From: Flectobacillus sp. BAB-3569
GTDB lineage: Bacteria > Bacteroidota > Bacteroidia > Cytophagales > Spirosomataceae
Direction of reading: 5' to 3'
NCBI RefSeq assembly: GCF_002270355.1
Contig: NZ_NJFZ01000003.1
Coordinates: forward strand, 222,307-286,306
Length of the DNA stretch: 64,000 nt
Under the pieces are notes generated by a model. It ran no database searches. It was not told the DNA's origin and saw nothing but the letters and a program-made list of their open reading frames with translations. Position numbers and translations under genes: made by a program. Shown in pieces: positions 5,525 to 64,000 of the stretch (within the stretch, counting starts at the first letter, position 1; every line of letters begins with the position of its first letter).

Positions 5525-6247
5525 CGATATTACCATTTTTTTAATGGTAATATCATCGTATCTTCTGTATTTTTTCCATTCTTTTTCAGGAGATTCTAGG
5601 TTGCTGAGAATTTGAATAGGGGGGTAACCAAGCCATTCTAATAACTCCAAAATATCCTGAAAGTGTCTTTGTGAATAAAGGATAGAGGGTTTGTTGTTAA
5701 CATCAAAGCAAATGGGTTCATGATGAGCAATTCTGTTTCGTAAATTATTGATATCTGTAAGTTTTTGGTAAATATTTTTTTGATTTATCCCTTTCGGACG
5801 ATTAGGGAATATTTGTAATAATGTGTTTCCAAAAACTTTAAATTGAATTCCAGAAAACATAAATCTCCAAAATCCAAAACTCAGACCTGCTACAACCTTA
5901 TCGTGAGAGTAATTTTTTCTTAATGCGATTATGGTGGAGTTAACTTTTTCAGCTTGTTCAAAACGTCCTGCATGATTTCTTAATGAAGGGTCATAAAATA
6001 AGCCTGATGGTTGACTATTATATTTTAGCCAGTCTGGTTGGTTTAAGTGTTGTTGGTAATGCTTGTTAATAGCATTTCGTAACGCAATTTCAAGCATTGA
6101 AATTGTTCCAAAAAGGGACTGAGATAGTCTTAAATTATATTTATATAGTCTAACAGCCTGTGATTTATTGCCTTGTGTAGCTGTTAGAAAACGCCCTAGA
6201 CGTGGTTTTGAAAGTAACTTTTCGTGAAGTATATACTGCTTTGACAA
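5423..6247 (-). CDS. HEPN-type Abi-like protein (Abi_2/AbiD-F family)
   Basis: A 274-residue protein resembling abortive-infection proteins of the Abi_2 group, which are probable HEPN ribonucleases. The N-terminal block with SLFGTISMLEIALRNAI is typical, and R170-N-R-I-A-H175 gives the HEPN R-x4-H active-site motif. No ATG occurs before residue 51, so translation probably begins at the TTG at 6247, just after an in-frame stop upstream. The last 34 codons are antisense to the 3' end of the OmpA-domain gene and run through the hairpin behind it. That hydrophobic tail (ISFLSIFVIVWSYW) looks like read-through past a lost stop. It is an isolated gene, probably acquired. Family call fairly sure; function inferred. 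Confidence 0.75.
   Translation of the reverse strand: MSKQYILHEKLLSKPRLGRFLTATQGNKSQAVRLYKYNLRLSQSLFGTISMLEIALRNAINKHYQQHLNQPDWLKYNSQPSGLFYDPSLRNHAGRFEQAEKVNSTIIALRKNYSHDKVVAGLSFGFWRFMFSGIQFKVFGNTLLQIFPNRPKGINQKNIYQKLTDINNLRNRIAHHEPICFDVNNKPSILYSQRHFQDILELLEWLGYPPIQILSNLESPEKEWKKYRRYDDITIKKMVISLLNPYNLYSTISFLSIFVIVWSYWLSASVAFKC
5526..5554 (+). terminator. Hairpin behind the PD40/OmpA gene
   Basis: A perfect 12-base stem (GATATTACCATT and its complement) with a five-T loop begins two bases after the stop codon. There is no strong T tract after it, so termination efficiency is unclear. It lies inside the antisense Abi-like reading frame. Confidence 0.5.
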
Positions 6248-6296
6248 TTCGTTGCTATTGTTTTTTGAATAAAATCACTTATTTTTACAACGTATT

Positions 6297-6333
6297 CCCC
6301 GAAACCGCTGGCTTGCCATGTGTCGGGGTTTTT
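6297..6333 (+). terminator. Orphan terminator-like hairpin
   Basis: CCCCGA pairs with TCGGGG and is followed by a T run, as in a rho-independent terminator for rightward transcription. No plus-strand gene ends just upstream; the neighbouring gene reads away from it. Either a short unannotated transcript ends here or the hairpin is a relic. No other feature is seen in 6248-6655. Confidence 0.35.
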
Positions 6334-6655
6334 GTTTTTATAGGGAATAGCCTATTCTCTAAGATTTGATTTTATCTTAAAGTGTATTAGGTAAAATAAA
6401 AAGAGTGGGGTTTAATAGACAAGTCTTGAGCTGAACTAATCTAATAGTAGCTTTGAGGTGATATATCTTCATTATCTTATTTACTTATAGGTACGACTAT
6501 TTATTTACTGAACAAATGTAAAAATATTTATTTAAAATAGATGATTCTCTAGTCATAAACCATCATTTTATGGAAAAAGGAAAGGATGCGAAAAGAGTTC
6601 TTTCCTTTTTTTATATATTCAAAATCTATTACATTTTTCAACAAATTTATCTCCC

Positions 6656-7411
6656 ATGAAAGCTCCTCGACTGATTCTTGTATGTTTATTGTTCCTAAAA
6701 ATAGCCACACTTCAGGCACAAACGCCACAAGATCGTTTGTACGAATTGCGTACCTATTATGCCACTGAAGGTAAGTTGGACGCACTACTAGATCGTTTTA
6801 AGAACCATACGCTAAAACTCTTCAAAAAGCACCATATCCAAGTAGAAGGTTTTTGGGTACCTGTCGACAATACAGAAAGTAAGCTGACCTATTTGCTATC
6901 ATTTCCTAACAAAGCAGCCAAAGAAGCCTATTCAAAGGCTTTTATGGAGGATAAAGCATGGAAAAAAGTGGTGGCAGAAACCACAAAAGAGGGAGAAATC
7001 ATTGCTAAAATGGAAAGTGTTGACTTAAAAATGACCAACTTTTCACCTTATGATTGGAAAAATGTAGGCAATCGTGTCTTTGAACTGAGAGTTTATAAAG
7101 CTACTCCTAATAATCTGGGCAATTTGCTCGACCGCTTTAAAAACCACACTATTGAACTACTCGAAAAACACGGTATTCATAATTTGATTTATTGGACACC
7201 AACTGAGAGTAGTCAAGGTGCGGAGGATATGCTATACTATTTTGTTGTGCATAAAGACAAAGCTTCAGGGTTGGCATCATTTAAGGAATTTGATGCTGAT
7301 CCAGCGTGGAAAAAGGTAAAAGCTGAAACAGAAGCTAAAGCAGGAGGATTACTCACGGTATATTTAAAATCAGAATATCTGATGCCAACGGATTTTTCGC
7401 CGATTAAATAA
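6656..7411 (+). CDS. Exported protein with two NIPSNAP domains
   Basis: A 251-residue protein with a signal peptide (cleavage probably after TLQAQ) and two copies of the NIPSNAP ferredoxin-like fold, about residues 26-125 and 137-240. Both copies contain LLDRFKNHT and start with an ELR block, showing internal duplication. NIPSNAP proteins have no agreed biochemical role; in Bacteroidota secreted double-domain versions are common. Single gene; the start is the only sensible ATG, right before the signal peptide. Confidence 0.88.
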   Translation: MKAPRLILVCLLFLKIATLQAQTPQDRLYELRTYYATEGKLDALLDRFKNHTLKLFKKHHIQVEGFWVPVDNTESKLTYLLSFPNKAAKEAYSKAFMEDKAWKKVVAETTKEGEIIAKMESVDLKMTNFSPYDWKNVGNRVFELRVYKATPNNLGNLLDRFKNHTIELLEKHGIHNLIYWTPTESSQGAEDMLYYFVVHKDKASGLASFKEFDADPAWKKVKAETEAKAGGLLTVYLKSEYLMPTDFSPIK

Positions 7412-7594
7412 AATCAAAGGACAAACCTGTAAGAGTTGCTAATATTGCAACTAAGAGTCTTTTGGGACTCAATCATTTCTCTTTTTTACATAACTTTAGA
7501 AACAATTCATATACTGCTACGAGTTGTTTAAGAAACGATTAATAAAACACACAAAAGATAAGGGGCGGTTTTCATCAACACCCTTGTAACGATT

Positions 7595-8347
7595 ATGTCA
7601 AAATTAGCGATTATTACAGGAGCTACCTCCGGAATTGGTAGAGCAACCGCAGTGGCATTTGCCAATTTAGGAATAGACTTAGTAATTTGTGGACGCCGCA
7701 TCGAGCGCCTCAATGAGTTGAAAGAAGAGTTATCATCTAAAGTAAAAGTACATACCTTAACATTTGATGTACGTGACCGTGAGGCTGTAGAAACAGCATT
7801 GAATAGCCTTCCAGAAGAATTAAAACAAGTGGATATTTTGCTCAATAATGCAGGCAATGCCCACGGACTAGGGACGATTCAAGACGGTGACGTTGCTGAC
7901 TGGGATGCGATGATTGATGGCAATGTCAAAGGGTTACTCTATGTTTCGAAGGTAGTAATGCCTTGGATGATTGCCCGTCAGAAAGGACATATTGTCAATA
8001 TTAGTTCGATTGCAGGAAAACAAACGTATCCAAATGGTAATGTATATTGTGCTTCTAAAGCAGCAGTAGAGGCTATTTCGGAGGGAATGCGTTTGGATTT
8101 GAATCCGCATAATATCAAAGTAACCAATATTGCTCCTGGGGCGGTAGAAACAGAGTTTTCAATGGTAAGATTCAAAGGTGACGCTCAAAAATCTGATGCT
8201 GTATATCAAGGATTCCAGCCTTTGGTGGCAGAAGATATTGCGGATATTATTGCTTTCACAGTTACACGTCCAGCGCATGTAGTCTTGGCAGATATTTTGG
8301 TGTATCCTACGGCTCAGGCTTCTCCATCAGTCGTAAAAAGACAGTAG
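7595..8347 (+). CDS. Short-chain dehydrogenase/reductase, YdfG-like
   Basis: A 250-residue cytosolic NAD(P)-dependent oxidoreductase. The Rossmann glycine motif TGATSGIG is at residues 8-15, NNAG near 85-88, the catalytic Ser in NISSIAG and the Tyr/Lys pair in YCASK. The overall pattern is closest to the YdfG/serine 3-dehydrogenase group (3-hydroxy acid dehydrogenases), but the substrate cannot be read from sequence. Monocistronic, with a hairpin 15 bases after the stop. Confidence 0.9.
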   Translation: MSKLAIITGATSGIGRATAVAFANLGIDLVICGRRIERLNELKEELSSKVKVHTLTFDVRDREAVETALNSLPEELKQVDILLNNAGNAHGLGTIQDGDVADWDAMIDGNVKGLLYVSKVVMPWMIARQKGHIVNISSIAGKQTYPNGNVYCASKAAVEAISEGMRLDLNPHNIKVTNIAPGAVETEFSMVRFKGDAQKSDAVYQGFQPLVAEDIADIIAFTVTRPAHVVLADILVYPTAQASPSVVKRQ

Positions 8348-8361
8348 GGCATTGAAACAAG

Positions 8362-8390
8362 AAAGCCCAATACCATTGGCATTGAGCTTT
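8362..8390 (+). terminator. Terminator hairpin after the SDR gene
   Basis: AAAGCCCAATACCA faces TGGCATTGAGCTTT, with two mismatched positions in RNA read rightward (both become G-U pairs on the other strand), followed by a short T run. Confidence 0.5.
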
Positions 8391-8831
8391 TCATATTCCG
8401 AACTTATTTATGGTAACTAATTATTTCTAAATCCAAACGTGTTCAATTCTAAAACGAACTGTGCACGAAAATGTTATTGTTTCAATAACTGGGTATGCAA
8501 AAAACTGCGTGAAATTCGATTTTTGATAAATGAGAGGCAATTTGTCAAATTAGTAGCAGGTAATTAGGAAATGAAATTTTACTAAAAACGAACAAACTCA
8601 ACTTTGCATTCTGATTTCTAATCAAAATTATAAATACTTCCTTGAATATGTGGAATATAACTCTGATTATTGAGTGAACGGCACATTGTGATTAAAATCA
8701 AAAAATGGAGTTAACCGCCGAGAGAAGGGGGAAAACGAAGAGGCAAATTCTTGTGCGAAGAAATCGTTGTTAGGTGAAAATATTTGCAGAAACTAGTCAG
8801 ATATTGCTAGTTTCTGCAAACTATAAATGTA
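8391..8831. other. Intergenic, no gene seen
   Basis: About 440 bases between the SDR terminator and the end of rlmB. It is AT-rich, with no open frame, RNA gene or repeat that I can recognise. Confidence 0.6.
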
Positions 8832-9629
8832 CTACAAGCTAAGGCGCTGACGTACTGCTTCGTACAATACTACGCCATTGGCTACAGAAACATTAAGCGA
8901 GCCTACGCGACCAGCCATTGGAATACTGGCCAATTCATCAGCTGCTTTTAATAACTCATCCGAAATACCATCTTCCTCAGAACCCATAATGATAGCTGTA
9001 GGAATAGTCATATCTACTTCATATAGATTTTTCGAAACTTTTTCTGTACAACCTACCACTTGAATCCCTGACTCTTGAAGGTACTTTACTGTTTGAGCTA
9101 AACTTTCTTCACGACAAACAGGTAAAAAGTTTAAAGCTCCAGAAGACGTTTTCATGGCGTCAGCATTGATTTGCGCTGCTCCCTTTGTAGGAAGCACAAT
9201 AGCATGCACACCTGTACACTCAGCCGTACGAGCAATCGCACCAAAGTTGCGAACGTCGGTTACTCTATCCAAAATTAAAAGAAGTGGTGTTTCTCCTTTT
9301 TCGTAAATACCCGCTACTACGTTGTCCAACTTAGCATAGTTGATAGCTGATACGAAGGCAATTACACCTTGGTGGTTTTTGCGAGTAACACGGTCTAATT
9401 TTTCAGAAGGAACTTTTTGAACTGGAATACCACGAAGACGAGCGAACTCTAACACTTCAATAGATCCCAATTCTCTTTGTACTAAAATCTTGTCGATTTC
9501 TTTCCCTGAGCGCAGTGTCTCCAATACCGATTGAACCCCAAAAACAATATCTTTATTGTCTGGTCTCGGTGCATGATTAAAATATTTGAAAGGTTTTTTA
9601 GGCCCTTCAGATTTTTGTTCGAGTGACAT
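8832..9629 (-). CDS. rlmB: 23S rRNA (guanosine-2'-O)-methyltransferase of the TrmH/SpoU family
   Basis: Methylates a ribose 2'-OH in 23S rRNA using S-adenosylmethionine; a knotted SPOUT-fold enzyme acting as a dimer. The N-terminal L30e-like substrate domain (FGVQSVLETL) is followed by SpoU motif 1 (VRNFGAIARTAE), motif 2 (IIMGSEEDGIS) and motif 3 (SLNVSVANGVVLYE). The ATG at 9629 gives 265 residues, normal for RlmB; an in-frame GTG at 9653 is less likely. RlmB rather than another TrmH paralogue is the best guess. Confidence 0.9.
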   Translation of the reverse strand: MSLEQKSEGPKKPFKYFNHAPRPDNKDIVFGVQSVLETLRSGKEIDKILVQRELGSIEVLEFARLRGIPVQKVPSEKLDRVTRKNHQGVIAFVSAINYAKLDNVVAGIYEKGETPLLLILDRVTDVRNFGAIARTAECTGVHAIVLPTKGAAQINADAMKTSSGALNFLPVCREESLAQTVKYLQESGIQVVGCTEKVSKNLYEVDMTIPTAIIMGSEEDGISDELLKAADELASIPMAGRVGSLNVSVANGVVLYEAVRQRLSL

Positions 9630-9837
9630 TTTTTTTGAATATAAATATAGCACTTAGCTATGTTTGGTATTAACAATCAGATAGATATACTCAAGTACCT
9701 TCTCTTTTTGTTAATGAGAAAATTTTAGCAAAGTTCGTAAAGTTTTTGGCAGTAACCAACAACTACCGCATTCTTATGCAGTGCTTTGAATGGTATTTTA
9801 CTAAAATCTTTAAAACTCATCTGTTTGCATCAAAGGA

Positions 9838-10746
9838 TTACGGATTTTTTTGAGCATTAGGTTTATTAAGCAGAAGATGAAGACTAAATCTGGGCGAACC
9901 ATTGATGGTAACTCTATTCCTATAGTCATCTGTATCAATGATGAAGTTAAGTCCCAACTCCAAGGCATATCTTGCTCGACTAATTTTCAATGACGAACCC
10001 AGCATCGTTAATATAGCATCTCCTTCTTCAAACACCATGACTCCTTCGTTCATTAAAGTCAATTGATGATTTAAACGTTTGGAGTATCCTAGCGTTGTGG
10101 CTACAACACCTTTGCTATTTTCTTGATCATTTTTGAAAAATGCCGTTGAAATATTCACAAATGATTTGCTTGTGCCAATACTTAGCGCAGGAGCCCAGTA
10201 CGCACCACTACTGCTAAATGCGCCTATTTTTCCACCTGATACAGAGGCATGAAAAAGCCTTGTATCTAAAAAAATAAACTTGGCTTTGTACATATAAAAT
10301 AGCCTAGGATAAAAAGGAAATATGGCTCCCGACATCGAAAACTTTTTAATCGGAAACAAAGATATTTCTGTTATCCCTGAATGAATATGGAGTTGCGCTC
10401 CTTCTTGCCCACCTTCAAATCCTGTTGGACTTAGAATGAGTCTATCTAAAAATCGGTCTTCGAAGTAGTGCTTTACGGGTGGGTTTGTAGGATCGAGGGG
10501 TACAATTTTGTCGATACTTGTGTTGTAAATTTTTTTCTTCCGACCATCAGGTGTTTCAAATCGAACAAATTCTGGAGTTTGTTCAAGCATTTTTCCAGTG
10601 TAGAAGATTTTACTTTTTAAATAAATTACAGATTCGGGTTGTACACGGGAAGTATCAGTTTGGGTAATTACCTGAGCCTTGATGCTTGTAACAGAAATAA
10701 ATAATAATAGTGAAAGAGAAATGGTACGTAGAAATGATGAGTTCAT
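9838..10746 (-). CDS. Exported protein of unknown function
   Basis: A 302-residue protein with a clear signal peptide ending at SIKAQ. An early segment (YLKSKIFYTGKML, then ETPDGRKKKIYN) looks like a small beta domain of the kind found before outer-membrane barrel regions. The remainder is rich in alternating hydrophobic and aromatic strands, suggesting an outer-membrane-associated beta protein. I do not recognise the family. Confidence 0.7.
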   Translation of the reverse strand: MNSSFLRTISLSLLLFISVTSIKAQVITQTDTSRVQPESVIYLKSKIFYTGKMLEQTPEFVRFETPDGRKKKIYNTSIDKIVPLDPTNPPVKHYFEDRFLDRLILSPTGFEGGQEGAQLHIHSGITEISLFPIKKFSMSGAIFPFYPRLFYMYKAKFIFLDTRLFHASVSGGKIGAFSSSGAYWAPALSIGTSKSFVNISTAFFKNDQENSKGVVATTLGYSKRLNHQLTLMNEGVMVFEEGDAILTMLGSSLKISRARYALELGLNFIIDTDDYRNRVTINGSPRFSLHLLLNKPNAQKNP

Positions 10747-53561: not shown

Positions 53562-54263
53562 TTAATTATCCCACCAGTGCTTGAATTTATCAATTAATGA
53601 GACGTTTTTCTTTGTGCCTGCAATGGTTTGAGGAACTCCTGAAAGACTTTGCTTCTTAGGTTTTGGTTTAGACTTTTTGAAATCTAAACCTATACGTAAG
53701 GCAATAGCTTTGAAATCTGCTGTATCACCTTTGATGAGATTCTTATAGAATTTTCTTTTGCCTTTCAGAATTTGAATTTGCTCTTCCAAGGTTAACTCTT
53801 TTTGGTTTTTGGTTAATACCCCTGATAATCCTGTTTGGCTAACTTTGAGGAACTTTCTTAATTCTGCTGCTATCTTTTCTTTGAATTGAGCGTTTGAAAT
53901 CACGGTTGCTTTTAACTCTTCTACTTCCTTTTCGAGATTGTCTCTTTCCAAGGTTTGTTTCTCGACCTTTTGTTGTGCTCTTTTGTCAACTGAGTTGGAT
54001 ATTTTTTTCTTACTTGGAGCTTTTGAAGTTGTTGATTTTGGCTTTTCCTGTTTTTGGAATATACCAACTGCTTCTGCGGTTTGTATTAGTGCGTCAAGGG
54101 TTTCTTCTGCTTCCGTTGAAATTGAGAACAAAGTGTCAAAATCCGAAAATCCCTCAGTATCCTCTTTTAACAATTGATAGTTCTCCTGTGAAACTTTGTC
54201 TAGTTGAGCTAACTGAGAAGGAGTAATACTTTTTACTAATTCGATGTTTTTTGAAGTATTCAT
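53562..54263 (-). CDS. Coiled-coil protein, last gene of the operon
   Basis: 233 residues, highly charged. A central coiled coil (about residues 90-130, RDNLEKEVEELKATV) follows a Lys/Ser-rich linker, and the C-terminus is basic, ending FKHWWDN. No recognised domain. Follows the 358-residue gene by 26 bases in the same direction. A structural or scaffold role is possible but only a guess. Confidence 0.65.
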   Translation of the reverse strand: MNTSKNIELVKSITPSQLAQLDKVSQENYQLLKEDTEGFSDFDTLFSISTEAEETLDALIQTAEAVGIFQKQEKPKSTTSKAPSKKKISNSVDKRAQQKVEKQTLERDNLEKEVEELKATVISNAQFKEKIAAELRKFLKVSQTGLSGVLTKNQKELTLEEQIQILKGKRKFYKNLIKGDTADFKAIALRIGLDFKKSKPKPKKQSLSGVPQTIAGTKKNVSLIDKFKHWWDN

Positions 54264-54289: not shown

Positions 54290-55342
54290 TTATTTAAGTT
54301 TTTGTAATTCCATTTGCTGGAGTTGTAATCTTAATCGATAGGTGTATTTCTTCGAGATAATCTTAGGGTCTTTGTCTTCTATTTTCTCCAGTTTATCCAA
54401 TTCAGCTTTTTGAGAAAAAATAATGGTAGCATCTCCATAATCCTTGAGATTGACATCAATTCTCACACTTTTTTGACGATTCACCTTGAGGTAGATATAT
54501 TTTACCTGTTGTGATTTAAGCAATTTTAAAATCGGTAGAATAGTCGCATTGATTAAAGTGACGCTATTGGTTTCAGAAGGTGAGACAAAATGCCCACTGG
54601 TCTGTATTCCCTCTGCCCATTTTAGATTGGTGCTGGAGTTGACACGAACGCTAAACCTAGTTCCCGAAATAGTGATTCTTGGGTGTTCAACTCCTTCAGC
54701 TACATCGATTCTGTTGAACTTTTCGACGATGCTGAGCAACTCAGCTACATTAATTCCAAAGGTATGTTTTTCAATGTCTGGTACACCTCTTAAGTAGTTG
54801 GGTGGCCACTTCACATCGAACTTTAGACCATGCTCTGTATAATGCCCTCTTTGTGAACCCTTGGTATGTATCCAAATCATGGAAAAATGATTTGCACTAA
54901 ATACCCCGTCATCTGAAAAGCATATTCCGTAGTCTTGTGATATGGAACTCTGGTCGAGAAACTTTGCCATGAATTTCATGAACTTCGGATTAGATGGACT
55001 AATCAATTCATTGGGTTCTGGCTTCAGAGCTTCTTCACCTTCAATTCTATAAATCAAGTTTGATAGTTGATACGGATTGAAGGTTACAGATGAGTTGTCA
55101 CTTAGTGTAACCTTCAGTTTAAGAATACTATTTTCAAAAACAGCCTCAGCGGAGTTAACCTCAAAGTTTTTTCTGATATAGTCAGCCAGTTCTTGGACAC
55201 TCAAGAACGGAATTGCATTTCCATCGATTTTATCACCAGAGATTCCTGTACTTTTAAAGTATTTCCAAAGCGCTACCAAAAACCTTTCTCTCTGACTGTA
55301 GAGAGAAAGGGGGAGTTTACCAATTGTGCTATCTTTAACCAT
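54290..55342 (-). CDS. 350-residue protein with C-terminal YRLRLQLQ tag
   Basis: Unknown function. Beta-rich, with ENSILKLKVTLSDNSSVTF and RITISGTRFSVRVNSSTNL, no membrane segment. Its last 20 residues (KKYTYRLRLQLQQMELQKLK) share YRLRLQLQ with the ends of the helicase and methyltransferase. The ATG at 55342 overlaps the helicase stop by eight bases (ATGGTTAA), indicating coupling. A TTG at 55366 is a poorer start. Confidence 0.7.
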   Translation of the reverse strand: MVKDSTIGKLPLSLYSQRERFLVALWKYFKSTGISGDKIDGNAIPFLSVQELADYIRKNFEVNSAEAVFENSILKLKVTLSDNSSVTFNPYQLSNLIYRIEGEEALKPEPNELISPSNPKFMKFMAKFLDQSSISQDYGICFSDDGVFSANHFSMIWIHTKGSQRGHYTEHGLKFDVKWPPNYLRGVPDIEKHTFGINVAELLSIVEKFNRIDVAEGVEHPRITISGTRFSVRVNSSTNLKWAEGIQTSGHFVSPSETNSVTLINATILPILKLLKSQQVKYIYLKVNRQKSVRIDVNLKDYGDATIIFSQKAELDKLEKIEDKDPKIISKKYTYRLRLQLQQMELQKLK

Positions 55343-58300
55343 TTTGTAATAGCTTATTTCTTTCAAGAATTTGTAACTGCAACCTTAAACGATATTTATA
55401 CTTGAGGGTAAGAACTCTTTTAGCATCATCGTTCTTAGGCTGTTCCTGCACTAAGGTTGGACTATTAAATACAGGCAGATCTTGAAGCTCATCACTAAAC
55501 TGATTTTCAAGGTTTACTTCATCAGCAATAATTTTAAATTGCTCAGGGCTTAGCTCAGCACTTACCTTTAGTTTGCCACCTAAAGTATTGAGGACTTTAC
55601 TTAGGTTACTGACATGGACTAACGCTGTCATGGTAGCAGAAACCTTTTCGAAAGAGTTTCCAACAATAGCAGAAAGAATATCTTCGTCTAGGTACACATT
55701 TCCAGCCACCTGTTTACTGGCTGAAACAATCAGTTTAAAGTGATAAGGGTCTTTTCTGAAGATAGACAAAGTATTAGAACACTGTAACGATTGGTTGGTC
55801 ATAATACTTGAGACAACCTTCAAGCACTTATTGATAGGTACACTTACTTTCTGTGACGAGGTTCTACTTGCTTTTTGAATGTAGTTTTCTGGAAGAAGGA
55901 TTCCTTTTCTAACTTTATTTTCAAGAGTGGTAAACTGAACTAATCGCCCTGAAAAATTATCGTTACGGTATGCTTGAATTAAATTACCAGTAACGATGTA
56001 TCTAATACTTCTATCCTTTAAGTTATTCGAAATAGCGGTCTCCCATTTAGGCAAAAGCTCTTTAACGAAAGAGTAATTTTGAGGCATTTTTTGAGAGGTT
56101 CCTTTGATAGAAAAAATCCTTTCCGAATTACTTCCTGAGATGGACGGAAATGAGAGTAATCTTCTCGAGGAAGCTATTGCAATTCGAAGCCCTATATTGG
56201 ATGGCGAAAAAGGTTTATCTTTTGTTGGATTAATTCTGACTCCTAAACAAGTGGCTAATACTCTCGTTACGCTTCCATTTTCGAAATTATTTTCAGGAAA
56301 TAATAGAGGCATTCCAACTTGGAAGAAGCCTACAATTTCTTTCACGTAAGATAATTCATTAGCCGATTTTCTTTTACAATCATTGATGGATGATTCTTCA
56401 GCCTCTTCAAGCTCAATCAGCCTGCTTTGAACATAAGAATCTAAAGCAGCAGGTATTCCTTTTTCTGCTTTTTCTTGGTAAGCTTTCTCAGAAGTAATTC
56501 TTTCTCTTTTTAGGGCATAACTTTTCTCTATTTTCTCAATGTCTCTTTTAAGAATTAGAGCAAAGGAGTTTTCAGCCTGTAGAATAATCTCTTGAGTAAT
56601 TTGCTCAGGTCTTTTACCATCTAATGATGCTTTTAACTCGTCGTGTAACTCAGAGACACTCATTGGTTTTCTTAATACATTTACTTCACAACGTTCGATA
56701 AATGTATTGTCAGAAAATGGGCTTCTACCTCCCGTACCTACTTGTACGATAGTTCTTTCCAATGTTTTTGCACGCAGGTCCTGTGTTTCAACCTCAAGGT
56801 CAAACTTGTCATCTTCGATTAACTGTTTGATATGCTCTTGGTAGCGCTCCAAAATCTCAGTATAAAACTTTTCCTGCTCATGTACTGGTAATACTGCAAC
56901 TCGACCAGAAACTTTACTGGCTGCTCCAATTTGGATCGGGTCTTTATCTTCTTCGAACAAATTAAGAGGGTCATCAAGTTGTAAGCAAAGGTCTGTATTC
57001 TCTTGCATGTATTTAAACACAATCTCATCACCATACTTGTTCAAAAAATCTTCTGATTTCATCAAAGATTCAGAGTTCTTTTGGTTAGCTGTTGTGTTAG
57101 CATCCAAAGATTTTAGCTTTTTCTGCAACATCATCATGAGTCTTTTTTCCGCTGGAATCGAGGAAATAAGGTAATCGTAAATAGGCTTCTTAATCTGCCC
57201 CGTTCTGTTTATTCGCCCCCTTTTTTGTACTTCAGTATTAATATCCAATTCAGCTTGCAGAACAATCATTACCCTTTGTTTGACCTTTTCAGCAGGTACT
57301 TTAGCCGTAATGATGGCATGAGCTGAAGCGCCAGTAGAACCACTTTGGTTAATCATCAAGACATCTATTTCATTGTCATTGAATCTTCTAAAGGCATCAT
57401 TTACATTTTCCGCTTTTCTTCGAGAGACCACTCCGACAAAATTTTGAGTAGTTTTTTCAGACAATCTTTCACCAAGACCATTAAGTGATACGTTGGTAAA
57501 ATTGATAGAAAGATTTACTTCCAATTTACGTCCTGTAACCTCAGCCACCTTATAGCCATAGGCTTCTATTTTTTGCTTGATGTAGTCAATGGGTGAAATA
57601 CATAGCGAGCGTGAAGCATTTTGTATTTTATTGAAAATACGGAAATACTCATCACGAGCATCCATGGACATGGCTTCAATATCGAACGCATTTTTTTGGT
57701 GTTTCCCCACCTCATCCTTGATTGAATAGGCTAGTACCGCATTTAGGGACTTTAGGAGAACATTACTAAACGAAGCTGAAATAGTAGAACCATCTGAGAC
57801 CATTGTGCCTTCTTCATCCTCCATATTTTCTAAGAAAGACCCCATCGTTGAAGAAAAAGCTATAACAGGCTTTTTACCCTCTTTCAATCTCAATATAGCA
57901 CGGTTTGCCACATCATCAGCTTTTAGGGCAAAAAGCATTTGGTTGACCAACATAAACACCTTTGAAAAGGCAGGAGAAGCATCAACACCAGCACGTTTAG
58001 TACCATTTTCAATAATTGCTTGGGCTTGACTATCACGAACCTGTTTGTCGAGTTGTTGAACTTCAGGAATAATATACTCCTTCTGAAAATCAATGATGTC
58101 TCTAACAATTTCAGTAAACTCATCTGCTATTTTTCTATCCCTTAAAGCGTTTTTATCAAGATTGATATAGTTTACTTCAATGCCTTCATACAAGCGCTCA
58201 CGACGAATGAGTTGTCCCTGACTAGCCAATTGAGATGCTACAACTTCTTGCAGTGCCACACCACCCTGTTTGAAGGCACTTACGAGAGATTCTGTATCAA

Positions 58301-59132
58301 TGGCAGCTTCCGAAATACAAGTTTTCATAGCATACAGTGGCATATTATCAGGTCTTTTCGCAAAAGTTGCTGAAAGGAATGTAACCCCTTTGGCTTGGGC
58401 ACAAGCATTCATCAGGATTTGGCCTGTGTTAGATACCCCTGAGGCATTATGAGCTTCATCAAGAATCAAGATAGAGCCTTTTGCTACGCTCGTTAAGAAT
58501 TCAATTTTGGGAGATCCTTTTGAGTCTGATACCTGAGAATAGGTTAGCATAACAAGGTCATATTCTCTTGGAAGAATTCCAGATTTGATAATGCTATCTT
58601 GTTCCGATTTCATTGGGGGAGCATATAGCAAGTCTCCGTTTCGGTCTTTGATTTGAGTCTTTGCATCACGAGCATTCACAATAAAAGGATTTAGTGACTT
58701 GCTTCCAATGTCGTCCATATCTCGATACAAATCAGAAAATAGATTTGGTTTCTCTGTAATAAAGACGGGTCTATATCCTTGTTTGGTAGCATATCTAATC
58801 ATTGCAGCAGCGATACGCCCTTTACCGATTCCAGTCTGGTCAGCGATGATAATCCCTTGATTTTTTGCTTCAATGTTATAGATGGCAAGTGCTACAGCAT
58901 CGATTTGCTCAGCCGATAAAGCTTTGTAAAGAGCTGCCTTGGTTAGGTACTTCAAACGACTTTGGACGAAGGCATCCACGTCACCGCCGATGGCTTGTTT
59001 GAGATTTTGTAGCGCTTGATTGATTTCAAACGCCATAGAATCGGGTGTGTCCACATCAAGAGATTGTCCCTGAGAAAGTACAGGGTACTTCATGCCAAGG
59101 GCAATATCCATCAATTTTTTAGTTTTTTTCAT
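55335..59132 (-). CDS. Strawberry-notch-type superfamily 2 helicase with C-terminal YRLRLQLQ tag
   Basis: 1,265 residues. Walker A in DQTGIGKGRIAAAMIRYA near residue 105, DEAH box in LILDEAHNASG near 225, and a helicase C-terminal half with QSGSTGASAHAIIT and KRGRINRTGQIKKPIYDYL (motif VI) near 640; these match the AAA_34/Helicase_C_4 arrangement of Strawberry-notch proteins, which phages and conjugative elements often carry in very large polyvalent proteins. The C-terminal third is unrecognised, ending with KYKYRLRLQLQ plus 11 residues. Start overlaps the methyltransferase stop by 14 bases. Confidence 0.88.
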   Translation of the reverse strand: MKKTKKLMDIALGMKYPVLSQGQSLDVDTPDSMAFEINQALQNLKQAIGGDVDAFVQSRLKYLTKAALYKALSAEQIDAVALAIYNIEAKNQGIIIADQTGIGKGRIAAAMIRYATKQGYRPVFITEKPNLFSDLYRDMDDIGSKSLNPFIVNARDAKTQIKDRNGDLLYAPPMKSEQDSIIKSGILPREYDLVMLTYSQVSDSKGSPKIEFLTSVAKGSILILDEAHNASGVSNTGQILMNACAQAKGVTFLSATFAKRPDNMPLYAMKTCISEAAIDTESLVSAFKQGGVALQEVVASQLASQGQLIRRERLYEGIEVNYINLDKNALRDRKIADEFTEIVRDIIDFQKEYIIPEVQQLDKQVRDSQAQAIIENGTKRAGVDASPAFSKVFMLVNQMLFALKADDVANRAILRLKEGKKPVIAFSSTMGSFLENMEDEEGTMVSDGSTISASFSNVLLKSLNAVLAYSIKDEVGKHQKNAFDIEAMSMDARDEYFRIFNKIQNASRSLCISPIDYIKQKIEAYGYKVAEVTGRKLEVNLSINFTNVSLNGLGERLSEKTTQNFVGVVSRRKAENVNDAFRRFNDNEIDVLMINQSGSTGASAHAIITAKVPAEKVKQRVMIVLQAELDINTEVQKRGRINRTGQIKKPIYDYLISSIPAEKRLMMMLQKKLKSLDANTTANQKNSESLMKSEDFLNKYGDEIVFKYMQENTDLCLQLDDPLNLFEEDKDPIQIGAASKVSGRVAVLPVHEQEKFYTEILERYQEHIKQLIEDDKFDLEVETQDLRAKTLERTIVQVGTGGRSPFSDNTFIERCEVNVLRKPMSVSELHDELKASLDGKRPEQITQEIILQAENSFALILKRDIEKIEKSYALKRERITSEKAYQEKAEKGIPAALDSYVQSRLIELEEAEESSINDCKRKSANELSYVKEIVGFFQVGMPLLFPENNFENGSVTRVLATCLGVRINPTKDKPFSPSNIGLRIAIASSRRLLSFPSISGSNSERIFSIKGTSQKMPQNYSFVKELLPKWETAISNNLKDRSIRYIVTGNLIQAYRNDNFSGRLVQFTTLENKVRKGILLPENYIQKASRTSSQKVSVPINKCLKVVSSIMTNQSLQCSNTLSIFRKDPYHFKLIVSASKQVAGNVYLDEDILSAIVGNSFEKVSATMTALVHVSNLSKVLNTLGGKLKVSAELSPEQFKIIADEVNLENQFSDELQDLPVFNSPTLVQEQPKNDDAKRVLTLKYKYRLRLQLQILERNKLLQNG

Positions 59133-60696
59133 GTAGTACTGATGAAAGCGACTTCGACTGTAATTGAAGCCTTAGTCTATATTTGTATTTAATTTTGAGA
59201 GTGCTAGTTGTTTCTTGACTAAAATTGGAAGTAACTCTTTCGTAAAGCTCTTCGAAAGTATTTATCACTTCACCTCTGGCTTGTTCCTTGAGAGGTGCAA
59301 ATCCCTCAGCTACTTGTTTTATGCCAGAAATAAGAATAAGTCGAATATCAAAGCTTGTTCCTTGTCTGGAGTAAAGGTCGCCATTGATGTTAATTACGTC
59401 ATCTACCTTAAAATAGCGATATAGGTAACTTAGGAAAATTCTATTTTTACCTGCCTGAACCCTGCCTTCACTGTCATAATGCGTGTGTCCACCTATGATA
59501 ATGGCACATCGACCATCTGATTTTAAATTGTTGAGCGCATAATAGCTAAGAATATGGTCAAGGTCTTTGAGAATGTATTTATTGTCGATTTTTAGGTAAT
59601 CCCTTTGGTCAACTGCCCCAAATGGAGGATTGGTAATGACTCCATCAAACTTCTCGTTAGGCGTGTTGTAGATAGCATTGATTTGCGTTGCTTTTCTAAA
59701 ACCTTGAGTTAATAAATTCTTGTATCGGGTATCATCAATTTCGTTGACGGTGCATTGCTCAGGACGAAAAGCAATGGTCATCATGCCGTTACCTGCTGTT
59801 GGTTCAAAAATTTGACCTTGATAATTTTGTACTCCATTTTTTACATACAACCCTGCTAAATAAGCAATGGGAGATGCTGTTGAGTACTGTTGTAATAAAA
59901 TCGAAATACTGGTTCTATGTGAAAGTATTACCTGATTTCGATAAGTTTCAAGAATACTAAGGTACTTTTCATAGTCGCTTAGAGCCTTATCATTGGCAAT
60001 CTTTCTACAAACATTAACAATGGCTAATTCGGTGAGTTCTTTGATATCCGTTTTATCAGTGATTCCAAACTTACTAGCGAGCTTTTCAATACTTCTTTTG
60101 TTATGTTTCTCATTGCGCTCAAGCTCTAATTGTACCTGTTGAACGAATTGCTTTTCACTCGAAGTTATACTCAAGCTTCTACCGATAGAACCTAAGGAAG
60201 CGAAGTCAAAATCATACTCACGAGCTGTTTCATATGAGTCCTCATAATTAAATTTATCTTGAACTGGGTCAAGTACTATATCGGAAACAACCACATAGAT
60301 ATGTTGCCATCCTTGCCCAAAATCAACCATCTTAATCGTGTGGTTAACTTTGAGATTGTGTAAAATAGAAGAGATGAAAATGGTAAAATCTTCGCAGTCT
60401 ACGCCCTTTTGTCTATCTGCCCAAGTACGTCTGGGTAATCTGATTTGTTCAGTACCTTCTTTGTCGAAACGGTAATTGATATACGCTTTACAAAACTCGT
60501 AAATTTTTTGACAAAGAACAACACCTGAGTAAAGTTTAAATTGATTAGATAGAACGGTGGTTTGTTCAATGGATTTGGGAATAAGATTTTGTGTGATTAG
60601 GTTGAATGTATCATCCCCCGAATAATTGATTAATTCGATAAAATCATTCTTTTTGGGCTGCTGTAAAAGTAAGCTCTGATTCATATAAAAAGGCAT
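59119..60696 (-). CDS. Transglutaminase-like / N6-adenine DNA methyltransferase fusion with YRLRLQLQ tag
   Basis: 525 residues. An N-terminal transglutaminase-like domain has GVDCEDFTIFISS (Cys), WQHIYVVV (His) and VLDPVQDKFN (Asp), a complete catalytic triad, perhaps a protease. The second half is a class I methyltransferase with FEPTAGNGMMTIAF (SAM motif I) near residue 305 and ITNPPFGAVD (NPPF, N6-adenine type) near 357. It ends KYKYRLRLQLQ plus 12 residues. Likely methylates element or host DNA; together with the helicase it recalls P1 DarB. The ATG at 60696 overlaps the upstream gene by 53 bases; the ATG at 60684 is also possible. Confidence 0.87.
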   Translation of the reverse strand: MPFYMNQSLLLQQPKKNDFIELINYSGDDTFNLITQNLIPKSIEQTTVLSNQFKLYSGVVLCQKIYEFCKAYINYRFDKEGTEQIRLPRRTWADRQKGVDCEDFTIFISSILHNLKVNHTIKMVDFGQGWQHIYVVVSDIVLDPVQDKFNYEDSYETAREYDFDFASLGSIGRSLSITSSEKQFVQQVQLELERNEKHNKRSIEKLASKFGITDKTDIKELTELAIVNVCRKIANDKALSDYEKYLSILETYRNQVILSHRTSISILLQQYSTASPIAYLAGLYVKNGVQNYQGQIFEPTAGNGMMTIAFRPEQCTVNEIDDTRYKNLLTQGFRKATQINAIYNTPNEKFDGVITNPPFGAVDQRDYLKIDNKYILKDLDHILSYYALNNLKSDGRCAIIIGGHTHYDSEGRVQAGKNRIFLSYLYRYFKVDDVININGDLYSRQGTSFDIRLILISGIKQVAEGFAPLKEQARGEVINTFEELYERVTSNFSQETTSTLKIKYKYRLRLQLQSKSLSSVLHEKN

Positions 60697-63059: not shown

Positions 63060-64000
63060 TTAAGTTACATTGTGTTGAACGAAAACTACATTTCCCCAGT
63101 AGTCGATTGTTAAGTATCCATAAGGGGCGTTACTTTTTGACACTTGAGGAATATCCTTAATATTGATAGCACTTCCAGTTAGCGTCAAACTGGAGGTTAA
63201 AATGCTATTGAATGAACTCATATCACCAAAAATACATCCCTTCGGACTGTAAAGAATAAAGTTCGAAATAAGAGCAGACCCGTTTGAAACCCAAATTGGA
63301 GCTCCTGAAATGTCATTCCAATCGTGTCCATGTGGACTTGGGCTAAAGGTCGCAGGCTTTCCTACGATACTATCCCAATGATGACTATGCGCACTTGGAT
63401 TAAACTCGGACGGTTTTCCTGTGATGCTATCCCAGTTGTGGGTATGTCCCCAGTCAGCTTTACCATCAATTTTATTTTTCACGAGTGCCACAGACACAGG
63501 ATTAGTAATAGCATTTGACCATCTGGCATCATCGTTGACAACATCCACATGGTATCTTACCACATTTCCGTCTACTTGAACAACGTTGTAAGCACCAGAG
63601 GAAAAATTGATAGTGCTGTATTGCCCTTTATCTCCAGCATTTTCCTGTAATGATATGTTAAAAGCTGGTTTTCCTACAATACTATCCCAATGGTGGGTAT
63701 GCCCCCAATCAGCTTTACCATCAATTTTTGATTTCACTAGTGCAACTGATACAGGATTCGTAATGGCGTTTGACCATCTGGCATCATCGTTGATAACATC
63801 CACATGGTATCTGACCACATTTCCGTCTACTTGTACTACGTTGTAAGCGCCAGAAGAAAAGTTAACGGTGTTGTATATACCCTTGTCGTTTGCATTCTCT
63901 TGCAGTAAAATATTGAATACCGCTGGCTTTCCAGTGATACTATCCCAATTGTGGGTATGGTTACTGTCCGATTTTGAATTCCAGTAGGTAATTTGGGCAT
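63060..64000 (-). CDS. Phage-type fibre protein with 85-residue tandem repeats (partial)
   Basis: At least 313 residues, open to the window edge. Repeats of 255 bases (85 residues) each contain ADWGHTHNWDSITGKP, then LQENA.DKG.Y.T.NFSSGAYNVVQ and RYHVDV.NDDARWSNAIT. Shorter copies of HxHxWDSIxGKP follow toward the C-terminus. GHTH...I.GKP repeats are typical of phage tail fibres and other receptor-binding or host-recognition fibres. The true start lies beyond position 64,000. Confidence 0.82.
   Translation of the reverse strand, partial: AQITYWNSKSDSNHTHNWDSITGKPAVFNILLQENANDKGIYNTVNFSSGAYNVVQVDGNVVRYHVDVINDDARWSNAITNPVSVALVKSKIDGKADWGHTHHWDSIVGKPAFNISLQENAGDKGQYSTINFSSGAYNVVQVDGNVVRYHVDVVNDDARWSNAITNPVSVALVKNKIDGKADWGHTHNWDSITGKPSEFNPSAHSHHWDSIVGKPATFSPSPHGHDWNDISGAPIWVSNGSALISNFILYSPKGCIFGDMSSFNSILTSSLTLTGSAINIKDIPQVSKSNAPYGYLTIDYWGNVVFVQHNVT

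Follow-up and report, generated by a model that had tools for sequence, protein, structure and literature searches.

Unrelated enzymes of a Flectobacillus mobile element share a C-terminal peptide that is probably an element-specific docking tag

The window analysed here is a stretch of 64,000 nucleotides from Flectobacillus sp. BAB-3569 (contig NZ_NJFZ01000003.1, positions 222,307 to 286,306), and it holds a mobile element that is probably virus-like. Three neighbouring genes of this element code for an N6-adenine DNA methyltransferase (MTase), a Strawberry-notch-type helicase of superfamily 2 (SF2) and a third protein of 358 amino acids (aa), and all three products carry the same short peptide, YRLRLQLQ, close to their ends. 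In related elements the sequence of the peptide differs, yet it is again common to the element's own proteins. We consider it probable that the peptide is an element-specific docking tag, through which the enzymes would be gathered on an adaptor protein by charge-coded binding. The genes and peptides concerned are the following.

59119..60696, minus strand: N6-adenine DNA MTase, 525 aa, NPPF motif, tagged (Pfam, PHROGs, Foldseek)
59158..59190, minus strand: tag KYKYRLRLQLQ of the MTase, 12 residues before the stop
55335..59132, minus strand: Strawberry-notch-type SF2 helicase, 1265 aa, tagged (Pfam AAA_34 7e-22, Helicase_C_4 4e-21)
55371..55403, minus strand: tag KYKYRLRLQLQ of the helicase, 11 residues before the stop
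54290..55366, minus strand: 358-aa protein of unknown fold, TTG start, tagged, without a family above cut-off
54317..54349, minus strand: tag KYTYRLRLQLQ of the 358-aa protein, 8 residues before the stop
53562..54263, minus strand: 233-aa untagged protein with lysine-rich stretches, next gene after the tagged ones, probable adaptor (putative tag receptor)
54066..54263, minus strand: putative tag-binding domain, N-terminal ~66 aa of the 233-aa protein, net charge -7 over the first 55 aa

A sequence-only reading of this DNA had noticed the three tails, and they are real, all on the minus strand; the third protein has 358 residues from its TTG start and not the 350 given then. It was right that the adjacent 233-aa protein has no tag and that different folds share the peptide (MTase, helicase and 358-aa protein here, further folds in relatives). 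The MTase has Eco57I/N6_Mtase-type Pfam matches below the cut-off, matches DNA methyltransferase families of PHROGs, and with its AlphaFold2 (AF2) model Foldseek leads to TaqI/EcoKI-type MTases. The fold of this model ends near residue 490 and the tail is a separate, low-confidence helix (residues 497-524), so the tail looks like a tethered linear motif outside the fold.

At the DNA level the three tail pairs of the window use the same codon at 12 of 37 degenerate sites with identical residues, where 14.7 are expected from the genes' own usage, and their aligned stretches have 51-59% DNA identity. Since codon sharing is not above this expectation, the tails of the window are alike as peptides and not as DNA. 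The earlier suggestion of selection on the peptide itself instead of a recent DNA duplication is borne out for the window, and the tag peptide indeed looks selected.

Searched with a degenerate DNA pattern for YRLRLQLQ, the 6.6-Mb genome gives exactly six perfect matches, namely the three genes in each of two element copies, on contigs C48 and C60. With up to two mismatches there are 25 matches (the six included) versus 21 for the reversed control pattern, and the fixed-sequence search of the own genome gave nothing beyond copies of the window element. About 60 kb from the window element lies a different element of the same kind (L152, G000:C48:331000-350999; loci are cited by such L numbers) with the tag LIKIKLxLLKLK, and two tag types thus coexist in one genome. 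The second copy of the window element (G000:C60:82231-110204; L025, L026, L028) is a mosaic: its aligned blocks have 84-94% DNA identity to the window element, its helicase protein is only 70% identical to that of the window, and its MTase lies in two frames, with the change near residue 205.

Relatives were collected through the helicase. Two loci came from a scan of genome contigs and nine from viral contigs, which in another scan gave 160 relatives, the best 80 of them kept as 78 loci. Whole genomes with helicase relatives numbered 14/390 in the order, 3/395 in a phylum sample and 17/395 in a class sample, and 1/2, 2/7, 7/36 and 6/247 in later sets; some genomes in these samples had been examined before. 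Searching viral contigs with the helicase alone confirmed no relative, with the MTase alignment 59 stretches, none of them confirmed, and with the adaptor alignment seven loci, all on contigs already in the set. The MTase-helicase dyad is split on the Persicobacter plasmid pPP10, which also codes for an annotated amidase, and lies inside a single open reading frame (ORF) of 5391 aa in Bacteroides phage BS-TP4.

The tags of these elements vary widely, for example LVKLRAKAILxKQKQ, KLRLAKAKAKALLLYAYAQ and LELEAEALxLELEL, and are repeated on helicase and MTase respectively as RAKAILILQAQ and RAKAIMILQKQ in pPP10, LIKIKLQLLKLKAQAL and LIKIKLRLLKLKxxAL in L045/L152, RLRIAKAKAKAKLK and RLRIAKSKAVAKLK in L060, LVKLRAKAILIKQKQ and LVKLRAKAILLKQKQ in L064, and MELEAEALILELELM and IEIEAEALALELELM in L150; in L066 both proteins have KLRLAKAKAKALLLYAYAQKNK. 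Other tagged proteins are two separate ones of L084, one C5-methylase-like and one with LPD1, a 347-aa protein (L036) and an LPD1 protein (L143, L144).

How closely do the tags of one element match? The test covered 33 elements, 16 split and 17 fused, in which the MTase and helicase tails could both be read; near copies had been removed. The similarity of an element's own MTase and helicase tails averaged 48.7 versus 26.6 for permuted partners, a value that 0 of 100,000 permutations reached; the same held for split elements alone (56.1 versus 25.8) and fused elements alone (41.7 versus 30.9), each with 0/100,000. Twenty of the 33 exceeded all 300 composition-preserving shuffles. The other 13 are split L061, L063 and L074, with only three or four residues past the MTase core, L077, and nine fused elements, seven of them with a junction that is degenerate and helix-like (such as LEREALDLQDLF) and two (L135, L147) with another insert there. 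Among nine elements tested afterwards, all three split ones (L162, L163, L167) and five of six fused ones (L136, L158, L159, L160, L169; not L161) were above all 300 shuffles. In the window the own similarity is 62, the best foreign MTase-tail match 32 and the best foreign helicase-tail match 40; its tags are closer to each other than to the tag of the same gene in other elements. The own pair surpasses the best foreign MTase tail in 14/33 elements, and the matching effect is therefore clearest between, not within, closely related groups.

Several loci stood outside the 33-element test: the near copies L029, L030, L044, L045, L049, L050, L053, L057, L067, L134, L137, L144 and L149 (L030 and L044 are apparently one contig, with equal length and identical ORFs), L136 with an extra C-terminal domain (tested later), L046/L047 with a cut MTase, the cut ends L056, L059 and L151, ORFs above 2600 aa, which were treated as fused polyvalent proteins, and L058, a split element with no visible tag, where 7/300 shuffles reach its own score. 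Of 12 later loci, one (L164) is cut, and three (L165, L166, L168) yielded neither an MTase tail nor an adaptor match.

Because the tag sequence is specific to the element, one fixed-sequence search would miss relatives. Strict hydrophobic/charged alternation was tried as a general tag detector and rejected, as it overlooked most acidic tags. No tag was seen on reading the MTase or helicase ORFs of two cyanobacterial, one Pseudomonas and one Acinetobacter plasmid; a crude tag score flags two of these loci (L154, L156) all the same. A fifth stretch, L155, breaks off within its ORF and stood outside this reading. The more distant helicase of L166 (G1355:C16, ORF 5888-10186) ends in FKLKLQLQLAA, near the tag style of the window, with no adaptor or tagged MTase recognised beside it. 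By eye, another small motif of about the form L-x-G-[VL] (LNGV, AGLG, LGGL, LSGV) seems to recur after tags (L036, L084, L143, L163), at adaptor ends (L064, L031) and in the 233-aa protein of the window (LSGV).

The position of the tag is also informative. All 17 fused ORFs retain a tag after the helicase module, as judged by eye, and 8/17 have a second, matching copy inside, at the junction of MTase and helicase. A matching copy is present in 12/13 tagged split elements (Fisher p 0.017 against the fused ones, without phylogenetic correction), and with the later elements included the counts are 15/16 split versus 13/23 fused (p 0.014, likewise uncorrected). This fusion series fits docking, the junction copy matching less often where both enzymes already form one chain. 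In L036, L062, L084, L143, L144, L145, L163 and L167 the MTase tag is internal, before added residues. Internal copies in homologues, which the sequence-only reading had set down as counting against a C-terminal tag, thus do exist to the letter, yet every one listed stands at the end of the MTase module and none is scattered. What holds is a position at module ends; a strictly C-terminal one does not, in view of the fused homologues and these eight loci.

Tags are either acidic or basic, and the acidic ones, whose last 28 residues have a net charge of -3 to -10, occur in the set as often as the basic ones. We screened seven neighbouring gene families in three regions each (21 tests) as charge partners. 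For the protein family coded downstream of the helicase, here called the adaptor, the first 60 residues gave rho -0.69 versus tag charge (n = 24). None of the six other families had a negative sign with p < 0.05, and two other nominal results at p < 0.05 were positive (adaptor C-terminal 60, family f275 C-terminal 60). An iterated profile of the ~60-residue adaptor domain found it close to the N-terminus in 37 ORFs; L145, L036, L046 and L047 have more distant copies at internal positions. Tag charge and adaptor-domain charge are opposed over 30 elements (Spearman -0.73), and independent contrasts on the helicase tree give r = -0.69 (p = 2.6e-5), 19 contrasts being opposed. Charge flips even between sisters (L077/L060, L055/L052-L054, L148/L051). 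Twelve elements outside the fit agree, nine with an acidic tag having domains of -2 to +3 and three with a basic tag domains of -3 to -7; here the dividing line was not preset, several of the twelve are close to fitted ones, and four further loci had no adaptor match.

Comparison of 15 basic-tag with 24 acidic-tag elements shows that three columns of the domain bear most of the charge swap. From acidic-tag to basic-tag elements KGH becomes EAH, the K of VxK becomes E or another residue, and IKK/R becomes IKE/D. In L077 the domain is similar to the pPP10/L064 type, a type that accompanies basic tags, yet each of its three swap columns holds Lys, and the helicase tag is acidic, in keeping with these residues. 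Of the 141 helicase loci in the tally, which includes near copies, 49 have the adaptor domain; 48 of these score as tagged, and the 49th, L057, has its tag on a second helicase ORF. Neither tag nor adaptor domain was scored in 69/141, L062 and L166 among them. In the adaptors read, the domain is followed by a linker rich in lysine and then by a helical region; those larger adaptors that were scanned run on into a P-loop ATPase. The adaptor of L035 matches phrog_6891 (5e-21) and a RadA model (7e-5), and those of L139 and L053 have weak AAA matches.

In the window, the 233-aa neighbour is probably the adaptor, to judge from its place and sequence. Its gene directly follows the tagged ones, the same place as the adaptor gene in relatives, and among 44 ORFs of the window element it is the best against the adaptor-domain profile, with 57 columns aligned from the first residue. 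Glu27, Glu34 and Glu54 fall on the three charge-swap columns; this protein was outside the fit, and Glu at these columns with a net charge of -7 is what a basic tag predicts.

On this basis the following arrangement may be proposed. Separate enzymes of a polyvalent set (N6-MTase, Strawberry-notch helicase and others) would end in a linker and an alternating hydrophobic/charged stretch, and depending on the element further enzymes would be tagged as well (358-aa protein, C5-methyltransferase, LPD1 protein or 347-aa protein). The tag would bind the ~60-residue, usually N-terminal, domain of the adaptor coded just downstream, in which a lysine-rich linker and then a RadA-like ATPase often follow. 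Specificity would be partly electrostatic, an acidic adaptor domain accepting basic tags and a near-neutral or basic one accepting acidic tags, and the tags of one element would co-vary because they have one receptor in common. Protective and early-acting enzymes might in this way be kept in one complex with the element DNA during or after transfer, docking doing the job for which other phages fuse such enzymes into a single giant protein. The sequences show the shared tags at module ends, their matching within elements, peptide likeness without DNA likeness in the window and the charge complementarity; the physical binding, the hub architecture, the link to the ATPase and the purpose we infer. 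Still more tentatively, an adaptor-ATPase may be the platform on which Bacteroidota viruses bring co-delivered polyvalent enzymes together non-covalently, and the tags may keep the sets of co-resident elements apart.

Several observations weigh against the docking interpretation. The charge correlation was first found as the best of the 21 tests, 9/28 non-zero contrasts have the same sign, and one domain column moves the opposite way (column 29, +0.92). L135 (acidic tag, domain -3) and L148 (tag 0) are misfits, and the domain charge of L146 changes with the alignment (E 0.0028). Tagged loci served to train the adaptor profile; when read, the tails of L062 and L166 look tag-like, but no adaptor match reaches the threshold there, and the crude tag score flags 13 adaptor-less loci besides four window-type ones, of which 13 at least L063, L074, L154 and L156 show no tag on reading. 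The MTase tail of L077 fails to beat its shuffles. AF2 confidence is low for the tag, which may be helix or strand. Finally, the match of the 233-aa protein to the domain profile is statistically weak (hhalign p 0.0042, probability 8-9%; hmmsearch i-E 3.9).

The nature of the elements bears on the alternatives. Twelve relatives code, upstream of the dyad, for a protein family of 235-281 aa where complete (L035:418-1134, L064:882-1727, L034:2381-3223 and homologues). L035:418-1134 has no match in Pfam, PHROGs or NCBIfam, and the AF2 model of this 238-aa member is a beta-sandwich (predicted local distance difference test, pLDDT, 70.6). Only three of its matches in the Protein Data Bank (PDB) reach E <= 0.001, two from EhV-201 and one from SPV1, all of them capsid proteins, and FLiP penton, PBCV-1 and SH1 are among the weaker ones; query-normalised TM-scores are mostly 0.2-0.4. 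Judging by the model, the family possibly forms the jelly-roll capsid of tailless Bacteroidota viruses that have gone unrecognised, and these capsid-like matches, with the amidase of pPP10 beside them, favour tailless viruses for the relatives that have it. No homologue was found in the window element by phmmer. The window fits the methylase-helicase dyad class in having an EcoKI/TaqI-type N6-MTase adjoining a SWI2/SNF2-like helicase; several disparate domains in one polypeptide are seen in the fused relatives and not in the window, where MTase and helicase are separate ORFs.

Packaging into the virion, as the sequence-only reading had considered, is plausible. The peptide would then bind a capsid, scaffold or internal-membrane protein and bring the enzymes into the particle, to be delivered together with the DNA, the adaptor being secondary or part of the route. 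The tagged proteins are of the polyvalent type (MTase-helicase dyad, LPD1), a class described in the passages of PMC5512222 consulted as virion-packaged or co-injected, and capsid candidates stand upstream of the dyad in those twelve relatives. These candidates show no opposite-charge signal to the tag, however (n = 9, rho 0.17 to 0.58), and their low TM-scores and absence from the phmmer result in the window speak in the same direction. An adaptor protein is a better-supported partner of the tag, and we regard the packaging explanation as possible, if rather doubtful.

Could the tails instead be copied between neighbour genes by recombination and persist neutrally, without function? Taken together, 11 MTase-helicase pairs agree at 83/168 codons of identical residues versus 63.7 expected, which also weighs against the docking interpretation. 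Some DNA copying is therefore likely in part of the elements and probably helped most in L150 (10/11 codons in common, 5.1 expected), with a smaller excess in L060, L066 and L036; it is not visible in the window. For the window such concerted evolution is already contradicted, because there, as in L064 and L084, codon agreement of the MTase-helicase pair is below expectation while the peptide is kept. Moreover, the junction copy is non-matching in 9/17 fused proteins and only 1/13 tagged split ones, and a domain in another gene tracks the tag charge, which makes copying without function very unlikely as a general cause. Alternating hydrophobic/charged peptides can self-assemble, and tags that bind one another would bundle the enzymes directly; but the matching tags within an element carry charges of one sign, which disfavours homotypic pairing, the adaptor domain with its opposite charge is a better partner, and we find self-association unlikely. 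An amphipathic anchor for membrane or DNA, without specificity, would suit basic tags rich in Lys/Arg and the hydrophobic, membrane-like segments noted by eye in several window-element proteins. Acidic tags, equally common, would not bind DNA or anionic lipid, and an anchor gives no reason for near-identical sequences within an element; we give it hardly any credence.

Some other features of the window proteins may be mentioned. For the 358-aa protein, neither Pfam nor PHROGs nor NCBIfam gives a family above cut-off, phages and plasmids give no match, and its clear homologues, among the loci collected, are only in near copies of the element. Against the PDB only its tail region weakly resembled a LIS1 segment (E 3e-4), which we took as chance or coiled-coil; a sliding-clamp identity, guessed from motifs, was unsupported. 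In the MTase, N-terminal residues about 46-121 have a sub-threshold transglutaminase-like match (DUF553, E 0.011), and this region is missing from shorter relatives such as that of pPP10. At 63060-64000 and beyond (L023:14367-19898) lies the C-terminal end of a very large repetitive protein of 1843 aa or more, with ELGAYLPLTGG in its repeats, probably a fibre.

If the binding is true, natural tag/adaptor pairs would be a ready series of peptide-domain pairs differing in specificity, and the tag would be a sequence handle for recognising cooperating proteins in uncharacterised elements. Testing what accompanies invading DNA also becomes easier, since the tagged set can be read off a genome. Our literature search on tag strings and shared cargo peptides found no report of the tag.

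Among known systems, one shared peptide or module recruits unrelated enzymes to a scaffold in the dockerin-cohesin pairs of the cellulosome and in the cargo peptides of encapsulins and microcompartments, and the tags resemble these in being common to unrelated enzymes; to our knowledge, a charge code for each mobile element is not part of those systems. The capsid targeting sequences of phage T4 are likewise a shared peptide on unrelated internal proteins, but they are N-terminal and cleaved, unlike the tags at module C-termini described here.

Closest in working is the docking of non-ribosomal peptide synthetases (NRPS) and polyketide synthases (PKS). In the parts of PMC9113145 consulted, a C-terminal short linear motif (SLiM) of NRPS/PKS subunits pairs with an N-terminal beta-hairpin docking domain through charged interface residues; such docking joins separate subunits, and in a PKS class charge reversal alters specificity. 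The anatomy and charge covariation of tag and adaptor resemble such a pair, as far as sequences can tell: a short C-terminal peptide on a linker and the N-terminal domain of a partner. Unlike the ordered NRPS/PKS pairs, several unrelated enzymes here have one tag and would share one adaptor hub, in a mobile-element setting, and the adaptors scanned (L035, L064, L139, L053 and the 233-aa protein of the window) match no beta-hairpin docking family in Pfam or NCBIfam.

The enzymes themselves are those of the polyvalent proteins and the methylase-helicase dyad, such as DarB of phage P1, with the same set of N6-MTase, SWI2/SNF2-like helicase and LPD1 (PMC5512222, in part); the passages of that account consulted name no docking tag, and the Bacteroidetes virus passages of PMC5894146 do not describe this dyad. 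Unlike polyvalent fusions, seen also in BS-TP4, the parts here can be separate polypeptides, which tag and adaptor would join. This suggests that mobile elements have two ways to hold an unrelated enzyme toolkit together, one giant fusion or the same plug on each enzyme with a shared socket.

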